Part shown: positions 51,300-64,000 of the stretch, piece after piece
Layout: every line of letters begins with the position of its first letter
How positions within the stretch are numbered: the first letter of the stretch is position 1
Assembly: GCF_036226405.1 (NCBI RefSeq)
Contig: NZ_CP108464.1
Location: 1,116,001 to 1,180,000, forward strand
Source: Streptomyces sp. NBC_01260
GTDB taxonomy: Bacteria; Actinomycetota; Actinomycetes; Streptomycetales; Streptomycetaceae
Direction: 5' to 3'
Length of the DNA: 64,000 nt
Notes under the pieces: generated by a model
Databases searched by the model: none
Seen by the model: only the letters and a program-made list of their open reading frames with translations
Told to the model about the DNA's origin: nothing
Position numbers and translations under genes: made by a program

Positions 51300-53021
51300 T
51301 TACTCTTCCCCAGGCTGCAACGCGCCGCTCCCCAGTCCCTCCCTGGCGACCTGCGCCATGCGGCGCACTGTTTCTGTGAGGCGCGACGCCTGGGCTTCCA
51401 CTTCTCCGAGCGCTCGGAACGCCGAGCCGTAGCGGCGCTGGACAACGGGTTCGCGCTGCGGGATGCGAGCGCTCTTGGGGTCGGAACGGTAAGTGCCGCT
51501 CTGGGAGGTGGAGCGGCGGATATTCGGCCCGGAATTGAGAAAACCGTCTAGATACGCGGGGTCGATCTGGTCCCCCGTGGCCCGGACAATACCCCCGCCG
51601 ATGTCCACGAGGCCGGCGCGGGCCAGGTCGGCGATGCTGACGGTGGCACCGTCCCACAAGTCGGCACCGTCGCCTACGCGCAGGTCAGGGAGCAGCGATT
51701 CCAGGGCTGTGAGCGCTGCGCTGAGTTCGGCGCGGGCCCTTTCGTACTCGGCGGCCATGTCGCGCCGGACGACGGGCATGTGCGATGCGGGGGTGAGGTC
51801 GACATCGTCATCGAGAAGGTCGATGAGTGGGACGTCGGCGGTCTGGCCGTCTGCGGGGACAAGGGTGCCGTCGGGGTCGTTGGAGGTGAGGTCGACCATG
51901 GTGACGGTGTCCGGTCTCGTACCCGTGTCTTCGGGGCGGCGCAGGAGCCAGAGGTGTACCGGAAGGGCGTGCGAGGAGGCGACACCTCCGGGCAGGGCGA
52001 CGACCTTGCGAATGGCTCCGCGTCGGACCAGTTCGGCGCGAATGCGCCTGCCCGCCTTGCGGTAGGCGACGGAAGCCGGCATGACCACAAGCAGGTGGCC
52101 GCCGTGAGCAGTGTGCGCGTAAGCGTGCTGCAGCCAGGCAAGTTCGCCTTCTGCGCGGGAAGGGGTGCCGAACTCCCACCGCGGGTCGAGTAGAAGTTCT
52201 TCGCGACCCCAGTCGGTGACAGCGGCCGGCGGGTCACAGACCACCAGGTCGGCGGCAAGACCGGGAAAGCGATCAGCACGCAGCGCGTCGCCGTGTGCAA
52301 TGCGGATGTCTTCGCGGCCGGTCAGAGTAGAGCGCACGCGTGCGATACGGACACAGTCCTCATCGCTGTCCTGGCCGAAGCGGACGAGACCGCGGGCTGG
52401 TAGCAGTCCGAACAGAAGCGTCCCGATACCGCTGGCGGGATCGAAGACGGTCTGCCCGCGGCGCAGGTCGGGGGCGAAGTGAGTGACAGCTCGGACGATG
52501 CGGGGTGACGTGACGAGGTCGGAGCCGGAACGGCGGGCGGAGTCGGTCATCCTGGCCACCAGGGCTTCGACGGCCCCCGCCGGCCCGGCGTCTGCGGCGA
52601 GCCGGTCCAGCAAGCTACGGAGGGGGACACCGGACGGTTCACGCAGCGGGGGGCCGACCGGTCCCGCAGGCGCGTCCGCCGCCGCACGCGCCGCGTCACC
52701 GGCAAGGTGCTCCACGGCGGCCGCGACAGCCGCAACTGTGGCGTCACCGTAAGCGGCACGCAGCGCCTGCCAGGTCTGAACTTCGAGGGAGACTTCCTGG
52801 CTCTTGTCGCGACCGTCCAGCCACTTCTGAACGGCGTCCCATACAAAGAGAGGACTGGAGGCACTGCCACCGACGGCCGGGGGAAAGTCCTCGTAGCGGC
52901 GACGCCAGTTGGAAACAGCTGCCCGGGTCACTCCGGCGAGGCGGGCGATCTCGGCGCCGGTGACGAGCGCCGACGACGCACCCGCGGGTTGGTCCGGGCT
53001 GGGCTTGACGGTGTCCGGCAT
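51300..53021 (-). CDS. HTH-fused N6-adenine DNA methylase
   Basis: 573 aa from ATG 53021; the longer open frame to 53219 lacks a start signal. Residues about 20-60 form a helix-turn-helix (TGAEIARLAGVTRAAVSNWR then a PLFVWDAVQKWL segment). Then comes an N-6 methylase domain: SAM motif FDPASGIGTLLFG near 190 and catalytic DPPA (in VVCDPPAAVTDW, near 260; the usual form is NPPY/F). The C-terminal 150 residues resemble a target-recognition/coiled-coil region. HsdM-like but no HsdR or HsdS adjacent. Divergent from the kinase-helicase gene 342 bp away; it may modify self DNA or regulate the locus. Confidence 0.85.
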   Translation of the reverse strand: MPDTVKPSPDQPAGASSALVTGAEIARLAGVTRAAVSNWRRRYEDFPPAVGGSASSPLFVWDAVQKWLDGRDKSQEVSLEVQTWQALRAAYGDATVAAVAAAVEHLAGDAARAAADAPAGPVGPPLREPSGVPLRSLLDRLAADAGPAGAVEALVARMTDSARRSGSDLVTSPRIVRAVTHFAPDLRRGQTVFDPASGIGTLLFGLLPARGLVRFGQDSDEDCVRIARVRSTLTGREDIRIAHGDALRADRFPGLAADLVVCDPPAAVTDWGREELLLDPRWEFGTPSRAEGELAWLQHAYAHTAHGGHLLVVMPASVAYRKAGRRIRAELVRRGAIRKVVALPGGVASSHALPVHLWLLRRPEDTGTRPDTVTMVDLTSNDPDGTLVPADGQTADVPLIDLLDDDVDLTPASHMPVVRRDMAAEYERARAELSAALTALESLLPDLRVGDGADLWDGATVSIADLARAGLVDIGGGIVRATGDQIDPAYLDGFLNSGPNIRRSTSQSGTYRSDPKSARIPQREPVVQRRYGSAFRALGEVEAQASRLTETVRRMAQVAREGLGSGALQPGEE

Positions 53022-53175
53022 AAGCGCCACCGTACACGGAGACTCCCCCCTACACGGGCCTGCATCGATGCGTTGACACAACTCACACACAACTCGGCAC
53101 GAAGGACCGCATCCGTCGAGTGAAGCCCACCCGGTCGGCGCAGCGCTGCTACTGCGCGGACTCGGCTCGACCTTT

Positions 53176-53247
53176 GCTAACGCATCCAGATCGCCGATCC
53201 CAAAGCTCGACCAACCCAACCTTCACGTTCGAGCTGAATGCGTTAGC
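53176..53247. promoter_or_regulatory. Nested inverted repeats in the divergent promoter
   Basis: Outer arms GCTAACGCAT (53176-53185) and ATGCGTTAGC (53238-53247) are perfect; inner arms AGCTCGA (53204-53210) and TCGAGCT (53229-53235) are perfect too. Together they could bind a dimeric regulator or form a cruciform/RNA fold. Lies between the methylase and kinase-helicase genes; the methylase HTH is a candidate binder. Confidence 0.65.
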
Positions 53248-53363
53248 TACGTCAACATGAAATTCTCACTAGTGTGACAATCGATTAGGTGTACTCTTGC
53301 TCGCCGGGGCGCTCGCACCATGCGCACCACCCTCCAGCAGTCGGATGACGTAAGGGAGTGCCA

Positions 53364-56300
53364 GTGGACCTGCAGACGGTGGCCGGGCGGTTCCGGATCA
53401 CAGGGGCCGTCGGCCGCGGGAACATGGGGCAGGTCCACCGAGCCCTCGATCTGCAAGCGGCGGAGAACGCGGCAGACCGCGACGTCGCCCTGAAGACGAT
53501 CCTGCGCAGCCGGACGGGTCTGGCAGTCGATACCGCCCAGGACGGACACCTGGTCGAGCGATTCCGCCGCGAGGTGGACATCATGCGCCGCCTCTCTCCG
53601 CGCCACCCGAATCTCACCCGCCTCATCGCCGGCGGTGTCGACACCGCCGTCGCGCAGGGCGGCAGCGGCTTGCCCTACCTGGCCATGGAGCTTCTCGACG
53701 GCCATCCCCTGACCGAGCTGATCGATGAGGAGCCGCAGCTCCCCGTCTCCTGGGCCGCGGCCCTGGCCGCGCAGATCGCCGGTGGGCTGGCCTCGGCCCA
53801 CAGCGCGGGCATCGTCCACCGCGACCTCAAGCCCGCGAACCTCATGCTCACCCGCGACGGCACCGTCAAGATCCTCGACTTCGGCATGGGCCGGATGGTC
53901 GACGACGCCGACCAGACCCGCCTCACCAGCACCGGCGTCGCCGTGGGAACCGCCCGCTACATGGCCCCCGAACAGTTCCGTGCCGAGCTGGTCACCGCCT
54001 CTGCCGACCTGTACGCGCTCGGTTGTGTCCTGTACGAACTGCTCATCGGTAAGCCGCCGTTCAACGCCAAGGTCGCCTTCGACCTCTCCGAGCAACACCA
54101 GAACCTGCGGCCCCCCTCCCTCACCGTGGTCCGCCCCGACCTGCCCGACGAACTCGTCCTGCTGGTCAACCGGCTCCTGGAGAAGGACGCGGCGAACCGT
54201 CCGTCCAGCGCCACCCAGGTCCGCGAGGTCCTCGTCCCGCTCGCCCTCGCTCCGGACGACAGCGCGGCCTTGCTCGCCCCCGAGTGGACGGCGATGGACC
54301 CGGTGTCGAGGCTGCGCATGGAGTTCCCCGCACCATCCGCCCCGGTGCCCGTGCCGGTGCCGCGCCGCGCGCCCCGCGTTCCGGACGCCATGGACGTCTT
54401 CGGTATCCACCGTGAACTGATCGACGAGTACGAGCGCTTCACCAAGGGCGCCACCGTCGTGCGCGACGGCCGGATCAGCGGATTCATCGAGGATGATCTG
54501 GCGGACAAGTCACAGTGGCCCGACCCCTGGCTGTCCCTCAACCCGTTCTTCGACGACGGCGGCAACGTCCAGGACCTGGTACGCGACGATGTCCTGCACC
54601 AGAAGTGCGCCGAGATCTTCCAGGCCGGCAAGAAGGAGGACTCCCGCCGTCCCAGTGGCCGGCCGCTCACCTTCCACCGGCACCAGCGTGAGGCGATCGA
54701 TGCCGCACAGGCCGGCGACTCGTACGTGCTCACCACCGGCACGGGCTCCGGCAAGTCGCTCGCCTACATCGTCCCGATCGTCAACCAGGTCCTCAAGGAA
54801 CGGGAGACCGAGGGCCCCGGCGCGCCCGGCCGGGTGCGGGCCATCATCGTCTACCCGATGAACGCGCTGGCCAACTCGCAGCTCAAGGAGTTGCAGAAGT
54901 ACCTGCGGCACGGCTTCGGCGCCGGCCGCGAGCCCGTCACGTTCGCCCGCTACACGGGCCAGGAGAGCGACGAGCAGCGGCGCGAGCTGCGCAAGAACCC
55001 GCCGGACATCCTGCTCACCAACTACGTGATGCTGGAACTCATGCTCACCCGGCCCGACGACCGGGCAAGCCTGATCCGGATGGCCGAGGGTCTGCAGTTC
55101 CTGGTCTTCGACGAGCTGCACACCTACCGCGGCCGCCAGGGGGCGGACGTCGCCCTGCTGATCCGCCGGGTCCGCGAGGCGTGCCGCGCGGCGGACACCC
55201 TTCAGTGCATCGGTACGTCCGCGACGATGTCGACCGAGGGCACCTGGCCGGACCAGCAGCGCGAGGTCGCGAAGGTCGCAGGCCGGCTCTTCGGCACCAC
55301 TGTGCTGCCCCGGCGCGTCATCGGCGAGACGCTGGTGCGCGCCACGGATGAGGCCCCGGACCGGGTTCCGGCCGAGCGGCTGCGCGCGGCCGCCGCACCC
55401 TTGTCGTATCAGGCACTCACCAAGGACCCGCTGGCGCGGTGGCTTGAGTCGCGGTTCGGCCTGGAGCGCGAGCCCGGGACGGGCCGTCTGCGGCGCTGCC
55501 CGCCCGGCACGATCGAGCAGGCGGCGGATGACCTCGCCGCCGAGTCCGGCGTTGCACCGGAAGCCGTCGGCGAGGCGATCCGCGCCACGCTGGAAGCCGG
55601 GTCGCAGGCCAAACACCCGGTGACCGAGCGGCCGTTGTTCGCATTCCGGCTGCACCAGTTCCTCTCCAAGGGCGACACGGTCTACACGACGCTCCAGGAT
55701 CCGCTGACCCGCCCGCTGACCCGCACCTACCAGCTGGAGCAGCCCGACAGCAACGGCAAGCCGCTCTTCCCGCTGGCGTTCTGCCGTGAGTGCGGCCAGG
55801 AGTACGTCACCGTGTGGCGCACCGACGAGAACGGGACGTTCCGTTACGAGCCGCGCCGTGACACCTCCGGGTCCGGCGGCCGCGAGGGCGAGGGCTACCT
55901 GTACATCGGCACGCCCGGCGAGGACTACGAGTGGCCGGCCGATCCTCAGCAGGCCATCCAGGACCGACGGCTGCCGGAGTCCTGGTTGGAGCCGGACGGC
56001 CACGGTGTGAACGCCGTCAAGAAGACCTACCGGCCACGCGTGCCCAAGCGTGTCGTCGTCGACGCGTTCGGGCACGAGTCCGGTGAGGGTCTGGTGGCCG
56101 CATTCATCCCGGCTCCGTTCCTGTTCTGCCTGCACTGTCAGATCTCCTACGAGCAGACGCGCGGCCGGGACTTCGCCAAGCTGGCCACACTCGACCAGGA
56201 AGGGCGTTCGTCGGCGACGTCCGTCGTGTCGGCGTCGATCGTAAAGTCGCTGCGCTCGGTCCCCGAGGACGTGCTGTCCAAGGAGGCCCGCAAGCTCCTC

Positions 56301-59300
56301 ACGTTCGTGGACAACCGGCAGGACGCCTCCTTGCAGGCCGGGCACTTCAACGACTTCGCCCAGGTGACACAGTTGCGCAGCGCCCTGCACCAGGCTGCGC
56401 TGCTGGCCGGTGAGGAAGGGCTGCGCCATGACGACCTCACCCAGGCCGTCACCGAGGTCATGAATCTCAGGCCCCGCGAGTACACCGGCAACGCGAGCAT
56501 GGCCCCCGGTCTGGAACGTCGCGCCACCAAGGTGTTCCGGGACGTCGTCGGCTACCGCCTCTACCGCGACCTCGAACGCGGCTGGCGCATCACGATGCCG
56601 AACCTGGAGCAGTCCGGCCTGCTGCGCATCGACTACGAGGACCTCGACTGGCTGGCGGACCAGCAGGACCGCTGGCAGGCCACACACCTCGCACTGCGCG
56701 ACGCCGAGCCTGCGCTGCGCTCGGAGGTGGCGCGCGCTCTCCTGGACCACATGCGCCGTGCGCTCGCCATCGATGTGCAGTACTTCCGCGACGACTTCGA
56801 CGCCCTGCAGCGTGCCAGCGAGGAACGGCTCGTCGATCCCTGGGTGCTTTCCGAGGGCGACAAGCCGCAGGTCGGCACCGCCTATCCCTATGCCTCCAAG
56901 CCCGGCATGGAGCGCTCCGCGCTGTTCCTGTCCGCCCGCGGCAAGTACGGCAAGTACCTCAAGCGCACAGCGGCCGCGTTCCGGGACCTGAGCCTGGACG
57001 ACGTCCAGACGGTCATCGACGATCTGCTGAAGGTCCTGCGGGAGGCTGATCTGGTGCACGAGGTGCAGGCGGGGCCGGAGCAGTCCGGCCCGGTGTACCG
57101 CCGCCGTCAGGCGGAGCAGCGCACCGGTTTCCGGGTCTCGGCCGCTTCCCTGATCTGGAAGGCGGGGACGGGCGAGAGCGGAGCGCACGACCCGCTGACC
57201 CGGACGTACCACAGCGGTGAGGGCCCGCGCGTGAACCCGTTCTTCCGCCGCCTCTATCAGGACGCCGCCTCGGAGCTGGCCGGTCTGTACGCCCGTGAGC
57301 ACACCGCACAGGTGTCGCCCGAAGACCGTGAAAAGCGCGAGGAGGAGTTCCGTTCCGCCGAACTGCCCTTGCTGTACTGCTCGCCGACGATGGAACTGGG
57401 TGTGGACATCTCCTCGCTCAACGCCGTCATGATGCGCAACGTGCCGCCCACTCCGGCCAATTACGCCCAGCGCTCCGGACGCGCCGGCCGGTCGGGACAG
57501 CCCGCTCTCGTCACCACGTACTGCGCCACGGGCAACAGCCACGACCAGTACTACTTCCGCCGTTCCCGGGACATGGTGGCCGGGCAGGTCGCCCCGCCCC
57601 GTCTGGACCTCGCCAACGAGGACCTGGTCCGCTCGCATCTGCAGGGCATCTGGCTCGCCGAGACGGGCATGAAGCTGGGCCGTGCCGTCCCCGACGTCGT
57701 CGACGTCGCGTACGACCCGGACGGCGAGGAGCGCCCTGACCCGGACATGCCGCTGCCGCTGCTGTCCGACATCCGTGACCGGTCGCTGGACGAGGACGCG
57801 CGGCGTCGTGCGGTCGCCGCCGCGCGCACCGCCCTGGGGCCGCTGATCCCGGACTTCGCCGACACCACCTGGTGGTACGACGAGTGGATCGAGGACCAGG
57901 TCGCCAAGGCTCCCGAGGCGTTCGACGCGGCGTTCGACCGGTGGCGGCAGTTGTTCCGCGCCGCCGTCCTGGACCAGTACGAGCAGAACCGGCGGGTCGT
58001 CGACCACACCCTCAGCCAGGGCGAGCAGGGGCGCGCCCGGTCCCGCAGGCGCGAGGCGGAGACCCAGACCGCGCTGCTACTGAACCGTTCGTCGGACTCC
58101 AAGTCGGTGATGAGCGACTTCAACCCGTACCGCTACCTGGCTTCCGAGGGTTTCCTGCCCGGCTACAGCTTCCCGCGTCTGCCGCTGGCCGCGTACATCC
58201 CGCGCTCCGGCAACCGACGCAACGCGGACGGCGACTATCTGCAGCGTCCCCGCTTCCTCGCCATCCGCGAGTTCGGCCCCGGCGCGCTGATCTATCACGA
58301 GGGCGCCCGCTACCAGGTCACCCGCGTACAGCTGCCCCCGGACGCCTCGGGCGACCTGGCGACGGCCGAGGCCAAGCGCTGCGACCACTGCGGTTACCAC
58401 TACGAGGGGTCCGCGGGTGCCGACGTCTGCGACATGTGCAAGGAGCCTCTGAGCGGCCGGCGCACCAACCTGCTGCATTTGCACACGGTGTTCACCACAC
58501 CGCGGGAACGCATCTCCTCGGATGAGGAGGAGCGGCGCAGGGCCGGCTTCCGCCTGGAGACCTCGTACGCCTTCCAGGACCACGGCTTGCGGAAGGGCCG
58601 CCTCACCTCGCACGTCACCGATGCGGAGGCCGCACCGGTCCTCAACCTGGACTACGGCGACTCGGCGACCGTCCGCATCACCAACCTGGGCCGGGTCCGC
58701 GACAAGCAGGGCGATCCGGACGGCTACTGGCTCGACCTGAGCGACGGCCGCTGGCTCAACGACAAGGCCGCCGCCGAGGCCATCGAGGGCACCGGCATGC
58801 CGGTCGTCGACGAGGACGGCAACGAGAAGCGCCGCAAGAAGCGTGTCGTGCCGTACGTGGAGGACCGGCGCAACATCCTCGTGGTCACGCTCGACGAGCC
58901 GCAGCCGGAACCGGTCGCCCTGTCGTTCATGTACGCCCTGGAGCGCGGCATCGAGGCCGCCTTCGAGCTGGAGGACGCCGAGCTGACGGCCGAGCTCCTG
59001 CCGCCGGACGACGGCCCGCGCCGCCGTGTCCTGTTCACGGAGGCCGCAGAGGGCGGTGCCGGCGTGCTGCGCCGCATCCAGCACGACAAGCGGGCACTCG
59101 CCAAGGCCGCCCGCACCGCCCTGGAGATCTGTCACTTCGACCCGGCCGACGGCGCAGGGGGCGCAGACCTCGGAGGCCCGAGCAGCAACGAGAAGTGTGC
59201 CCGGGGCTGCTACGAGTGCCTCCTTACCTACGGCAACCAGGGCGTCCACCGGCACCTCAGCCGCCATGCGGCGCGCCCGTTGCTGCTGCGCTTGGCGCGC

Positions 59301-59711
59301 GCGACGACGATCAAGGAGGACCGGGGCGAGTCGCGCACCGAGCAGTTCCAGCGGCTCGCAGCGGAGACTCCGGGCAAGGTCTCCGCCGTCAGCCCGCTGG
59401 AAGCCGACCTGGCCGCGCTCGTCGAGACCGGTGACCTCCTCGGCTGGCTCAAGGCAAAGGGATACCGGCTGCCGGACGAGTCGGGCACGCTCGTCCCGGA
59501 GGCCGCCGCCAAGCCGGACTTCGTCTTCCGCCTGGCCGGTGCGAACGTGGCGGTGTTCGTCGACAGCCCTTCCCGCGGCGAGGACCCGTCCCGGGACGGC
59601 GACGCCGTAGAACGTCTCGAGGACGCCGGCTGGGAAGTGCTGCACTTCGCTCCCGGGACGGACTGGGACACCATCACGGACGCCAACTCCGGCTACTTCC
59701 ATACCCGTTGA
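53364..59711 (+). CDS. Ser/Thr kinase - DEAD helicase - DUF1998 - nuclease-like fusion protein
   Basis: 2,115 aa from GTG 53364 (AAGGGAG 5 nt upstream; GTG 53358 also possible). Residues 1-285 are a protein kinase with all key residues: [27 protein letters not shown] near 151, DFGMGR near 172, APEQ. A superfamily 2 helicase follows: [14 protein letters not shown] near 456, [14 protein letters not shown] near 581, GTSATMS and [16 protein letters not shown] near 1370. A zinc ribbon (CDHCGYHY...CDMCK) is near 1672. The DUF1998 part is residues about 1845-1975 ([20 protein letters not shown]). The last 110 residues ([35 protein letters not shown]) resemble a Vsr/PD-(D/E)XK nuclease. No membrane segment. 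Related to DrmA/DrmB or DruE helicases; the fused kinase is unusual. Confidence 0.88.
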
Positions 59712-59761
59712 CCTCACCTGCTCCGCACCCTCCGTACGCGTCGAAGGATCCGAGACACTCC

Positions 59762-62734
59762 ATGAGCCTCACGTACTCCGCCGGTTCCCTGGTGGCCGCC
59801 CGCGGCCGCGAATGGGTGGTGCTGCCCGAGAGCGCGCCCGACATGCTGGTGCTGCGCCCGCTGGGCGGCAGCGACGACGACATCGCTGCCGTCTTCCCCA
59901 CCTTGGAGGAGGTGCGCCCGGCAGAGTTCGCCGCCCCGGACGCCGACGACCTCGGCGACCAGCGGGCTGCCGGCCTGCTGCGCACCGCCCTGCGGGTGGG
60001 ATTCCGTTCGGGCGCAGGCCCCTTCCGTTCGCTGGCCTCGATCGCCGTCGAGCCGCGCGCCTACCAGCTCGTCCCGCTGCTCATGGCGCTGCGTCAGAAC
60101 ACGGTCCGGCTGCTGATCTCGGACGACGTCGGCATCGGCAAGACCGTCGAGGCCGGACTCATCGCGACGGAACTGCTCGCGCAGGGCGAGGCGAGCCGGA
60201 TGACGGTCCTGTGCGCACCCGCGCTGGCGGAGCAGTGGCAGGGTGAGCTGCGCGAGAAGTTCGGCATCGACGCCGAGCTCGTCCTCGCCTCGACGGTGTC
60301 CCGTCTGGAGCGCGGTCTGGAGCTCGGCCAGTCGCTCTTCGACAGGCATCCGTACACGATCATCTCGACGGACTTCATCAAGTCCACCCGCCACCGTGAG
60401 GACTTCGTACGCCACTGCCCGGATCTGGTGATCGTCGACGAGGCCCACACATGTGTCTCGGCCGACGACGTCCACGCGGGCGGCAAGTCCGGCACGAACC
60501 AGCTCCGTTACGAGCTGCTACAGCGCATCGCCGCCGATCAGGACCGGCATCTGCTGCTGCTGACGGCGACCCCGCACTCAGGCAAGGAGTCCGCGTTCCG
60601 CAACCTGGTCGGCCTGGTCCGGCCCGATCTGGCAACCGTCGATCTGGAGAACCCGGCCGGCCGCGCCCGGCTTGCCGAGCACTTCGTCGCCCGTAAGCGC
60701 GCCGACGTACGCCAGTACCTCACCAAGGAGGACGGGCTGGCCGACGACTCGCTCGCCGAGCGCACCCCGTTCCCGTCCAGCCGCTGCCCCGAGGACAAGC
60801 CGTACAAGCTCACGCCCGAGTACCGCGCCCTGCTCGACGACGCCATCGCCTATGCCGCCGACCGCGTGCAGACGGCAGGCAGCCAGGGCAAGCGTGAGGC
60901 GCGGATCGCCTGGTGGTCGGTGATCGCCCTGCTCCGCTCGATGGTGTCCTCGCCGAAGGCGGCTGCCCAGACGCTGAAGACCCGCTCCACGGCGGCCGTC
61001 GCGCGCAGCGCGGAGGAGGCCGACATCCTGGGTGCCCCGCTCAACCACGATGCCGCCGACACCGACGCACTGGAGGGCCTGGACGTCGCCCCGGGTGCGA
61101 GCGAGAGCGAGAACGCCGGTGCCCGCCTGCTCGATCTGTCCGAGAGGGCCGCCGCCCTGGCCGGCCAGCAGGGCGATGCGAAGCTCAAAGCGCTGATCAA
61201 GCACCTGAAGTCGCTGCTCGCCGACGGCTACAACCCCATCGTCTTCTGCCGTTACATCCCGACCGCCGAATACCTCGCCGAGGAGCTGAGCGGCGCGGAG
61301 GGCAAGCCGGGCAAGCTCGGCAGGAAGGTGCACGTCGCGGCAGTGACCGGCACCCTCTCACCGCAGCAGCGCTTGGAGCGGATCGAGCAGCTCGGCGCCG
61401 AGGGCGCGGACGACCCGGCTACCCGCCGCGTCCTGATCGCCACGGACTGCCTGTCCGAAGGGGTCAACCTCCAGCACCACTTCGATGCCGTCATCCACTA
61501 CGACCTGGCCTGGAACCCCACCCGGCACGACCAGCGCGAGGGCCGCGTCGACCGTTACGGGCAGAAGCGCGACCAGGTCCGCGTCATCACGATGTTCGGT
61601 GAGGACAACGGCATCGACGGCAAGGTCCTCGAAGTCCTGTTCAAGAAGCACCGTCAAATCCAGAAGGACCTCGGCATCTCCGTCTCCGTCCCCGACGAGA
61701 CCGCGTCCGGCGTCACCGACGCAGTGGTCGAGTGGCTCCTGCTGCACGGACGCCAGGGCAGCCAGGAGGCCCTGTTCGAGGTCTCGGGGGTCCAGCAGAC
61801 CCTGGACCGCGTCGAGCGCGACTGGAACTCGGCCGCGGAACGCGAGAAGACGTCTCGCTCCAAGTACGCACAGCGCTCCATCCACCCCGAGGACGTCGCC
61901 CGCGAGGTGGCGTCGGTACGCGCCGCGCTCGGGGGCGCCGACGAGGTCCGCGACTTCGCCCTCGCCGCCCTGCACAGCCTGAACGGCCTCGTACGGGACC
62001 CGCGCGACGGCTCCGGCGACTTCACCGCCCAGGTCGGCGGCACCCCGGCCGGCCTGCGCGACGCGCTGGCTGCCACGCTCGGCAACCGCGTCGTCGAGGA
62101 GGACCGCGAGATCCCGTTCCGTACGTCCCCGGCGATCGCCCGCGGCGAAGCGGCCCTGGTGCGCACCGACCCGGCGGTCGGCGCACTCGCCTCGTATGTC
62201 CTGAACTCCGCCCTCGACGGCGAGGCCGAGGGGCCCCGCCCGGCCCGCCGCTGCGGAGTCGTCACCACGGACGCGGTCACCGTCCGCACCACGCTCCTCC
62301 TGGTCCGCTACCGCTTCCACCTCACCCTTCCGTCCCGTACGGGCGAGAAGCAGCTGGTCGCCGAGGACGCCCGGCTGCTCGCCTTCGAGGGGATGCCGCA
62401 CCGCGCCCGCTGGCTCGACGACGACACGGCGGCCGAACTCCTCGCGGCCCGCGCCTCGGCCAACACGAACCCGCAGGCGGCCCGCAACCAGATCACCCGC
62501 ACCCTGGACGGCCTGGGCGAGCTGACCGCGCACCTGGAGGAGTACGGGGAGCACCTGGCCGCCGAACTGGATGCCTCGCACCGCCGGGTCCGCAAGGCGA
62601 ATCGGTCCAACCAGGAGATCGTCCGCGGCTTGAAGGTCGTCCCGCAGAAGCCCGCCGACATCCTCGGCGCCTATGTCTACCTGCCCGCGAACCCGGCCGC
62701 CGCCGGTGTGAACCCCGCTGGAGCTGTCGCCTGA
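59762..62734 (+). CDS. SNF2-family helicase (DrmD-like)
   Basis: 990 aa from ATG 59762; an open frame begins at TTG 59708, inside the previous stop. Helicase motifs: SDDVGIGKTVEAGLIATELL (near residue 122), LVIVDEAHTCVS (224), LLLLTATPHSGKESAF (269), LIATDCLSEGVNLQHHFDAV (566) and HDQREGRVDRYGQKRDQVRV (590). The rest is an all-helical C-terminus typical of RapA/DrmD-type translocases. Acts on DNA with ATP. Overlaps the downstream methylase gene (TGATG), so translation is coupled. Same arrangement helicase-methylase as drmD-drmMI in class 1 DISARM. Confidence 0.9.
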   Translation: MSLTYSAGSLVAARGREWVVLPESAPDMLVLRPLGGSDDDIAAVFPTLEEVRPAEFAAPDADDLGDQRAAGLLRTALRVGFRSGAGPFRSLASIAVEPRAYQLVPLLMALRQNTVRLLISDDVGIGKTVEAGLIATELLAQGEASRMTVLCAPALAEQWQGELREKFGIDAELVLASTVSRLERGLELGQSLFDRHPYTIISTDFIKSTRHREDFVRHCPDLVIVDEAHTCVSADDVHAGGKSGTNQLRYELLQRIAADQDRHLLLLTATPHSGKESAFRNLVGLVRPDLATVDLENPAGRARLAEHFVARKRADVRQYLTKEDGLADDSLAERTPFPSSRCPEDKPYKLTPEYRALLDDAIAYAADRVQTAGSQGKREARIAWWSVIALLRSMVSSPKAAAQTLKTRSTAAVARSAEEADILGAPLNHDAADTDALEGLDVAPGASESENAGARLLDLSERAAALAGQQGDAKLKALIKHLKSLLADGYNPIVFCRYIPTAEYLAEELSGAEGKPGKLGRKVHVAAVTGTLSPQQRLERIEQLGAEGADDPATRRVLIATDCLSEGVNLQHHFDAVIHYDLAWNPTRHDQREGRVDRYGQKRDQVRVITMFGEDNGIDGKVLEVLFKKHRQIQKDLGISVSVPDETASGVTDAVVEWLLLHGRQGSQEALFEVSGVQQTLDRVERDWNSAAEREKTSRSKYAQRSIHPEDVAREVASVRAALGGADEVRDFALAALHSLNGLVRDPRDGSGDFTAQVGGTPAGLRDALAATLGNRVVEEDREIPFRTSPAIARGEAALVRTDPAVGALASYVLNSALDGEAEGPRPARRCGVVTTDAVTVRTTLLLVRYRFHLTLPSRTGEKQLVAEDARLLAFEGMPHRARWLDDDTAAELLAARASANTNPQAARNQITRTLDGLGELTAHLEEYGEHLAAELDASHRRVRKANRSNQEIVRGLKVVPQKPADILGAYVYLPANPAAAGVNPAGAVA

Positions 62735-64000
62735 TGTCCGCCGCCACCCGCACCGCCCCGGCCTTCACCTCCGTCACCACAGTCGGCGGCCTGCTCCCCT
62801 CCGACATGCTGCTGCGCATCGCGGAGGCAGCGAAGCTGCCCGGCACGAAGCCGGCCGACTACCACCTGCCCGCCTCCGTCGCCGTCCGAGACGAGGCCGA
62901 GCGCGCCTGGGAGTACCTCAAGCCGCTCTGGCGCGACCTCCGCACAGCCCTCCCCTCGGACCCGACCACGGGCTCCCCGGCGGCTGACCCGACGGGCCGC
63001 GCGGGCAACGACTGGCTCGCCCAGCTCTTCCGCAAGCTCGACTTCGGCCGCCTCACGGAAATCGGCCCCTCCGGCATCCCTGCCGACTCCGACCCGGCCA
63101 AGCACTTCCCCGTCTCTCACCGCCACGGAGCGGCCCTGGTCCACCAGATCCCCTGGAACCAGGAACTCGACAAGCGCGCGACGGCCGGGCAGATGCCGGC
63201 CCAGTCGATGCTCCAGGACTGCCTCAACCGCACTGGGGCCCATCTGTGGGCAATCCTCACCAACGGCCGCCGTGTACGCCTGCTGCGCGACTCGTCGGCG
63301 ATGGCGACGGCGGCGTACGTCGAGTTCGACCTCGAGTCGATCTTCGACGGCGAACTTTTCAGCGAGTTCGTGCTGCTGTACATGACGCTGCACGCGTCGC
63401 GCTTCGAGGTGGCCGAGGGGCAGCCGGCGTCGGGGTGCTGGCTGGAGAAGTGGCGGACGATCGCCATCGAGTCCGGCAGCCGCGCCCTCGACCACTTCCG
63501 CGACGGCGTCCAGGCGGCCCTCACCACCCTAGGCACAGGATTCCTGAGCCACCCGCACAACAACGACCTCCGCCAGAACCTGGACGTCCACGCGTTCCAG
63601 ACGTCGCTGCTGCGGCTCGTCTACCGGATGATCTTCCTCTTCGTCGCTGAGGACCGCGGCGCGCTCCTGGACCCGGCGGCCGACGAGCAGACCCGCGAGC
63701 GCTACGCCCGCTACTTCTCAACTGCGCGGCTGCGCCGCCACGCCCTGCGCCGCCTGGGCACCGCACACGACGACCAGTACCGCGCCCTGGCGCTGCTGGT
63801 CGACGCCCTCGGTTCCGAGGACGGCCGCCCCGAGCTGGGCTTGATGGGTCTCGGCGGACTGTTCAACGACACCGGAGCGGACGTACCTCTGCGTAACGTC
63901 CGCCTGTCCAACCGCCACCTCTTCGAAGCCGTACGACACCTGGCACGGGTCCGCGACGCGGGATCCGCCCGCTGGCGCCCCGTCGACTACCTGCACATGG
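62734..64000 (+). CDS. Eco57I/PglX-like DNA methylase, 5' part
   Basis: At least 422 aa, running off the window. Starts at ATG 62734, overlapping the SNF2 stop by one base. The visible part has the N-terminal recognition/nuclease-like region: LVHQIPWNQELDKRATAGQM, LWAILTNGRRVRLLRDSSAM and VEFDLESIFDGELFSEFVLL. It then has YRMIFLFVAEDRGALL with TRERYARYFSTARLRRHALR. This is the pattern of large Eco57I-type N6-adenine methylases such as DrmMI and PglX. The SAM motif and NPPY should follow beyond the window, so activity cannot be judged. Confidence 0.8.
   Translation, partial: MSAATRTAPAFTSVTTVGGLLPSDMLLRIAEAAKLPGTKPADYHLPASVAVRDEAERAWEYLKPLWRDLRTALPSDPTTGSPAADPTGRAGNDWLAQLFRKLDFGRLTEIGPSGIPADSDPAKHFPVSHRHGAALVHQIPWNQELDKRATAGQMPAQSMLQDCLNRTGAHLWAILTNGRRVRLLRDSSAMATAAYVEFDLESIFDGELFSEFVLLYMTLHASRFEVAEGQPASGCWLEKWRTIAIESGSRALDHFRDGVQAALTTLGTGFLSHPHNNDLRQNLDVHAFQTSLLRLVYRMIFLFVAEDRGALLDPAADEQTRERYARYFSTARLRRHALRRLGTAHDDQYRALALLVDALGSEDGRPELGLMGLGGLFNDTGADVPLRNVRLSNRHLFEAVRHLARVRDAGSARWRPVDYLHM

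Follow-up and report, generated by a model that had tools for sequence, protein, structure and literature searches.

Which system makes use of a Ser/Thr kinase fused to a helicase, encoded next to a second helicase and an adenine methylase? The question is raised by a locus of Streptomyces sp. NBC_01260 that lies in the 64,000-nucleotide stretch analysed here (the window, G000:C1:1116001-1180000 of a 9.28-Mb genome). An earlier note on this DNA had proposed a candidate anti-phage locus that combines parts resembling those of DISARM, Druantia and Pgl, and comparative evidence supports that proposal. We read the locus, with a probability of roughly 0.6, as an ARMADA type I operon with an N-terminal Hanks-type kinase and a decayed Vsr-like nuclease, acting in restriction-modification-like surveillance. 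The open reading frames (ORFs) are as the note had given them, and scans of the locus proteins with Pfam, PADLOC and NCBIfam profiles confirmed the kinase, SF2 helicase and DUF1998 domains (Pfam) and matched the SNF2 helicase and the Eco57I/PglX-like methylase. The architecture of the fusion protein stands, while its length is 2,117 amino acids (aa) rather than 2,115. The operon is composed of the following genes and domains.

53358..59711, plus strand: kinase–YprA helicase–DUF1998 fusion, 2,117 aa (ORF, Pfam, helicase tree)
53400..54218, plus strand: Hanks-type Ser/Thr kinase domain, aa 15-287 (Pkinase E 3.8e-43; catalytic residues intact)
54678..55232, plus strand: RecA1 (DEAD) of the YprA-type helicase, aa 441-625 (Pfam)
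57282..57497, plus strand: Helicase_C (part of RecA2), aa 1309-1380 (Pfam)
58929..59222, plus strand: MZB/DUF1998 zinc-binding domain, aa 1858-1955 (Pfam)
59235..59708, plus strand: degenerate Vsr/EDxHD-type nuclease domain, about aa 1960-2117 (alignment, motif loss, AlphaFold model; no Pfam match)
59708..62734, plus strand: SNF2/BrxHII-DrmD-like helicase, 1,008 aa if the earliest possible start codon is used (profile scans; motifs kept in 100 relatives)
62731..64000, plus strand: PglX/Eco57I-like adenine methylase, 5′ part (profile scans; NPPW in 91/91)

The three plus-strand genes abut or share up to 4 bp, depending on start codons. Within the fusion protein, DEAD, Helicase_C and MZB all score above the Pfam cut-off, and its relatives of solved structure are PknB-type kinases and helicases including YprA (6znp). 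Extension of the sequence past position 64000 completed the PglX-like methylase, which ends 2,942 bp beyond the window and has 1,403 aa; the gene 3′ of it is EcsC-like. Helicase homologues were sampled from 296 phylum genomes (18 with a match), 61 genus genomes (9) and 118 class genomes (8), sets that overlap and include the window's own genome, as well as from 46 relatives of G298 (7 with a match) and from plasmid records. Synteny among these homologues, a check proposed in the earlier note, was counted at loci with enough flanking DNA, for SNF2, PglX and the helix-turn-helix (HTH) methylase discussed below. SNF2 lies within 300 bp of the helicase in 84 of 85 kinase-fused loci, and PglX within 6 kb in 78/78. 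The kinase–helicase fusion, the SNF2 helicase and the PglX-like methylase are one operon, a conserved three-gene unit. The EcsC-like and HEC-07/NsnC-like downstream genes were rejected as conserved parts, with matches at only 4 and 9 loci, respectively, counted against 129 loci with a helicase match, duplicates and short loci included.

As described in the available text of a 2025 preprint (PMC12458937), ARMADA type I combines a YprA helicase with a BrxHII-like helicase and a PglX-like methylase, usually encoded in this order, and the YprA helicase ends in a predicted active Vsr-type domain. The window operon shares this gene order, the YprA-family helicase with DUF1998/MZB and the Vsr-like C-terminal domain. 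It differs from that description in adding a Ser/Thr kinase at the N-terminus of the helicase, in having a degenerate Vsr-like domain in place of the predicted active one, and in the divergent HTH-methylase found in its close group. Because the kinase is added and the nuclease motif is degenerate, the window locus is a kinase-carrying variant of ARMADA type I and not a standard member. In a helicase tree that includes ARMADA II, DruE and DrmA examples, with reference rows labelled by their own gene order and not from the list of the PMC12458937 authors, the window falls among operons of type I order. ARMADA II and DruE branch off jointly (98/95) and ARMADA II alone is supported at 100/100, whereas support for the type I group as a whole is poor (37/95).

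Whether the architecture had already been described, which the earlier note could not confirm, can be answered in part. ARMADA type I, not named there, matches it without the kinase, and for the fused kinase no description was found. The word "kinase" has 0 occurrences in the main text of PMC12458937, the supplement being outside this scope, and the open-licence literature, again outside supplements, yielded no description of a kinase–YprA helicase fusion. The available text of a BREX survey (PMC12839542) places kinases in PglW and DndF, and has zero matches to DUF1998, MrfA, DISARM or YprA. What is new relative to the named ARMADA type I is the single-clade kinase fusion, the invariant kinase, the nuclease decay, the PglX exchange and the accessory HTH-methylase.

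A kinase occupies the same open frame in 84 of the 107 homologous helicases of a further tree, and the fusion is therefore not an artefact of assembly or chance. That tree was built after removing 8 of 115 rows: three duplicates (L052, L053 and L055), one fragment (L150), three at contig edges (L107, L114 and L083) and one interrupted (L127). The 84 fused proteins and the kinase-less L119 form one clade, whose sister is two rows with a separate, divergent kinase, while 20 kinase-less rows lie outside; named contigs were the best 80 of 168 relatives, a selection that favours the kinase-fused clade and makes the sampling uneven. Another tree of 32 rows, computed with a richer model and four extra loci, supports the fused clade at 100/100 and its sister relation to the separate-kinase pair at 100/99. 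Within the genus, the helicase was matched in 9 of 61 genomes, and 8 of those 9 carry the fused form.

The separate kinases of the sister pair, which share 70% identity and are encoded by ORFs of 320 and 360 aa, adjoin the helicase divergently. They form their own clade in the kinase tree, apart from the fused kinases, and a single clade of fused and separate kinases was rejected by the approximately unbiased (AU) test (p 0.015), with the caution due to two loci and long branches. Since the AU test rejects the grouping, the separate kinases seem to have been recruited independently of the fused one, suggesting two recruitments; the small sample (2 loci, 28 of 84 fused kinases and 27 background rows, 25 of them distinct) falls short of proof. 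As a separate observation, each of the two genomes with a separate-kinase operon has a further kinase, roughly 11 and 17 kb away from it, at L161 (G298:C1:307268) and L163 (G316:C178:34093). These two are sisters (100/96) and adjoin the fused kinases in the tree with weaker support (96/78).

The catalytic residues of the kinase, described as intact in the earlier note, are invariant across the alignment of fused proteins: K46, E72, HRD, K158, N161, DFG and APE are present in 84/84, and one glycine-loop position varies. Helicase motifs are likewise invariant or nearly so. Relative to the window protein, identity averages 68% in the kinase and 54% in the C-terminal nuclease-like domain. Alignment of 29 intact C-terminal domains revealed invariant Glu, Gln, Asp, Asp-Gly and His residues, and the Glu, Gln, Gly and His of this motif are gone from the window protein. 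The Vsr-like C-terminus proposed earlier is thus present as a remnant with a degenerate motif, and an active fused nuclease is not supported. The His is absent from 66 of 84 fused proteins and from L119, which maps to a single change on the tree, and the Glu underwent five changes. The His is kept in the other 18 of 84 fused proteins, in both separate-kinase rows and in the 20 other kinase-less rows (22/22 unfused rows outside the clade). The whole motif is kept in 18/84 fused proteins, and DGPxH also in four later-added loci. With the motif intact in 18/84 fused proteins and its His kept in 22/22 unfused ones outside the clade, these alignments indicate that the kinase was gained by a protein whose nuclease motif was still whole, and that decay of the motif followed in a single lineage dominated by Streptomyces. 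DNA cleavage by the C-terminal domain has probably been lost in the window's Streptomyces clade.

The remaining parts of the operon retain their motifs. The Walker A lysine and DEAH histidine of SNF2 are present in 100/100 relatives and the NPPW motif of PglX in 91/91. Residues 641-1250 of PglX, encoded from window position 64651 and hence past the window end, constitute its recognition region. Among 32 close relatives (496 pairs), mean identity over this region is 56%, versus 86% for the helicase. Recognition-region identity does not follow helicase identity (Spearman −0.05), whereas helicase and SNF2 identities run together (0.88; 465 pairs). The helicases of L064 and L136 are 98.8% identical with recognition regions at 41.7%, and those of the window and L060 are 95.7% identical with recognition regions at 45.6%; conversely, the window and L069 share 82% in the helicase and 86% in the recognition region. 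By these comparisons, the PglX recognition region is swapped between operons independently of both motors. Such exchange is the expected pattern for specificity switching in a modification enzyme, which argues against a housekeeping role.

In the mechanism that we propose, the PglX-like enzyme would methylate adenines at sites set by the exchangeable recognition region and so mark host DNA. The SNF2 and YprA motors, judged from their families, would load on incoming unmarked DNA and translocate, and this engagement would activate the kinase held in cis. The kinase would then phosphorylate subunits of the system and/or host or phage proteins, stopping the phage. Given that the C-terminal domain of the window clade probably no longer cuts, the block would have to be exerted by the motors, by the kinase or by a nuclease from elsewhere, and the kinase may be an effector or a switch. 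That a Streptomyces lineage of ARMADA exchanged DNA cutting for protein phosphorylation, with the methylase of swappable specificity distinguishing self from non-self DNA and the helicase sensing unmarked DNA and firing the fused kinase, is conceivable but less likely than not. The phage-blocking mechanism of ARMADA is listed as unknown in the available part of PMC12904381. For ARMADA type II, the available text of PMC12458937 reports that all four genes were needed in E. coli and that infected cells remained intact.

Several points weigh against our reading of the operon. The phage test in PMC12458937, in its available text, concerns ARMADA type II and not type I. In the stretches examined, no kinase accompanies the ARMADA I-like helicases outside the fused clade, which include two copies from another family of the same order. 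The second helicase copy of Streptomyces sp. AC1-42W, L119, is a natural loss of the kinase within the fused clade, though the same genome holds the fused copy L060, which possibly supplies the kinase function in trans. The decay of the nuclease is also uneven, with one event for the His, five changes for the Glu and the motif kept in 18/84; because the His loss is a single event, a causal link between kinase and nuclease lies beyond what counting can establish.

The alternative that survives best, a serious if minority possibility, makes the kinase a brake or licence that phosphorylates the helicase, SNF2 or PglX and so keeps the system inactive until phage DNA arrives, with a motor-driven block. 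Fusion in cis and the adjacent divergent small kinase of the sister pair fit regulation as well as attack, and ARMADA I elsewhere manages without a kinase, the best kinase match being E 0.088 or worse in the stretch examined at 18/18 kinase-less loci searched. What this account leaves unexplained is the confinement of nuclease-motif decay to the kinase-fused clade, although a single event is involved.

The C-terminal domain could instead still be an active nuclease with a rearranged site, which we regard as improbable. The window protein does retain the Asp of PD, that of FVD and, further downstream, an RD. AlphaFold models of the domain have a mean predicted local distance difference test (pLDDT) score of 81 for the window and 85 for an intact form, and Foldseek searches with both rank PD-(D/E)XK-type nucleases high, with weak scores and none at E <0.001. 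However, four residue types invariant in the 29 intact relatives (Glu, Gln, Gly and His) are gone. In addition, the window domain has zero Pfam matches at E up to 0.1, whereas three intact domains give weak DUF559 and MTES_1575 matches below the Pfam cut-offs (best L146, 1.5e-5), and the intact domain of L122 matches Vsr too, below its cut-off.

More improbable still is that the kinase domain serves as a decoy or sensor for phage-encoded kinases, which are reported to switch off defences by phosphorylation. The available part of PMC12904381 cites phage kinases as inhibitors of DNA-targeting defences, but a decoy need not keep all catalytic residues, yet 84/84 do. A role in chromosomal DNA repair, as an MrfA/YprA-like helicase that carries a signalling kinase and has nothing to do with phage, would suit a long, well-conserved protein with YprA/MrfA among its solved relatives (6znp), but is very hard to reconcile with the patchy presence (9/61), the island absent from a relative, the exchange of methylase specificity, the unfused operons on plasmids and the tree position with ARMADA I.

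The relatives of the locus form a natural comparison set of unfused operons (nuclease motif only), fused operons (kinase and motif) and a large Streptomyces clade (intact kinase and decayed nuclease). This set lets one ask which ARMADA part stops phage. Should the kinase act when the helicase meets foreign DNA, the locus would provide a DNA-triggered kinase under restriction-type recognition.

Other defence systems share single parts with the operon. Class 1 DISARM is approached by the SNF2 helicase, which resembles DrmD (NCBIfam NF038317, 308 bits; the cut-off is 610), and by the methylase, which resembles DrmMI (PADLOC, 206 bits). DISARM has separate DrmA and DrmB, in contrast to the single YprA/DruE-like chain of the window; the DrmA/DrmB split and DrmC are given in the available text of PMC12458937. 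The window SNF2 as a whole matches DrmD, BrxHII and RapA models, the NCBIfam ones below cut-off, and the methylase matches Eco57I above cut-off, BREX_2_MTaseX below cut-off and DrmMI. For Druantia, the DruE model is the top PADLOC match of the whole helicase protein (344 bits), but no partner model was matched among the proteins scanned and the tree places the window helicase apart from DruE. The SNF2 helicase matches the PADLOC DpdE model PDLC02853 at 1,697 bits, whereas NCBIfam DpdE reaches 171 bits with a cut-off of 500. The PADLOC model may be built on the ARMADA-type SNF2 family, in which case its label may mislead ARMADA annotation. No other Dpd protein or 7-deazaguanine insertion gene was found among 16 proteins scanned, which cover part of the island genes. 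BREX type 2/Pgl (PglW and PglX) and MADS (MAD6) combine a kinase and an adenine methylase in one system, as does the window, and the fusion weakly matches PglW (49 bits, cut-off 990) and MAD6 (140 bits, cut-off 460). They differ in that the window kinase is fused to a YprA helicase, and neither PglZ nor BrxC was found among the same 16 proteins, a part of the island genes and not the whole genome. Plain membership in DISARM, Druantia, Dpd, BREX or MADS was rejected on these comparisons, for Dpd and BREX within the scope of the 16 proteins scanned.

Upstream of the operon lie a divergent gene and the region between the two.

51300..53021, minus strand: HTH and N6-adenine methylase-like protein (N6_Mtase E 3.7e-26; divergent, accessory; motif IV DPPA)
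53022..53357, no strand: divergent intergenic region (blocks kept in two close relatives, three-sequence alignment)

The HTH-methylase has an open frame of 51300..53219 on the minus strand with a probable start at 53021; its HTH was seen by eye and is accompanied by a weak PADLOC mad1 match. In the alignment of three sequences over 53022..53357, conserved blocks were found and nothing further. Counting loci whose DNA extends 4 kb or more ahead of the helicase domain, a homologue falls in that 4-kb stretch in 11/83 fused, 0/2 separate-kinase and 0/20 kinase-less ones. Of the four-gene block proposed earlier, the three plus-strand genes are conserved, and the HTH-methylase is rejected as a fourth core gene, being an occasional accessory. 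Its orientation is divergent from the operon in the window, L051, L060, L109, L126 and L146, and it lies upstream on the same strand in L122, L123, L124, L132 and L137. L147, which has less than 4 kb of upstream DNA and stands outside the 11/83, carries a homologue directly before the kinase. Motif IV of methylases usually holds an aromatic residue, which the DPPA of the window lacks. DPPA or DPPV occurs in the window, L051, L073, L109, L126 and L146, and NPPY, DPPF and NPPF in L124, L132 and L137; the pattern search missed or misread the remaining rows. The window protein is perhaps not a working methylase, and may be a methylase-derived regulator.

The surroundings were compared with six relatives. 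In G300, the DNA directly after aceB realigns with the window's own genome about 50 kb later, at a DcuC-family gene. G313 has 2.2 kb in between, the match of G309 and G302 returns further along, and G323 and G304 have zero match in the stretch taken. As a segment of about 50 kb is missing in G300, the locus sits in a strain-variable island of that size. The aceB side is common to the window, L060 and L126. Ten island-side proteins were scanned, and include a DrmA-like and DrmB-like pair, a GajB-like UvrD helicase and a second UvrD-related protein. The DrmB-like and DrmA-like pair (L006:15676-20000, minus strand) lies about 19 kb past the operon end, with best PADLOC scores of 242 and 676 bits. 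No DISARM methylase or DrmD was found among its scanned neighbours, and the pair is possibly an incomplete or different DISARM-like system. Neighbours of the unfused plasmid operons include DrmA/DrmB (L151), a NACHT protein (L152) and a Lit-family gene (L154), as observed without a control set.

A search of a phage collection gave two partial matches. At L150 (G427), a helicase piece lies in an open frame of only 326 aa, apparently a decayed locus. At L127 (Streptomyces sp. NRRL WC-3549), the helicase match ends early and SNF2 follows about 3.6 kb on, so that the fusion gene looks interrupted. The island also encodes, at L006:1835-7078, a large protein that resembles RHS-repeat proteins and whose N-terminal part looks membrane-like, recognized by eye.

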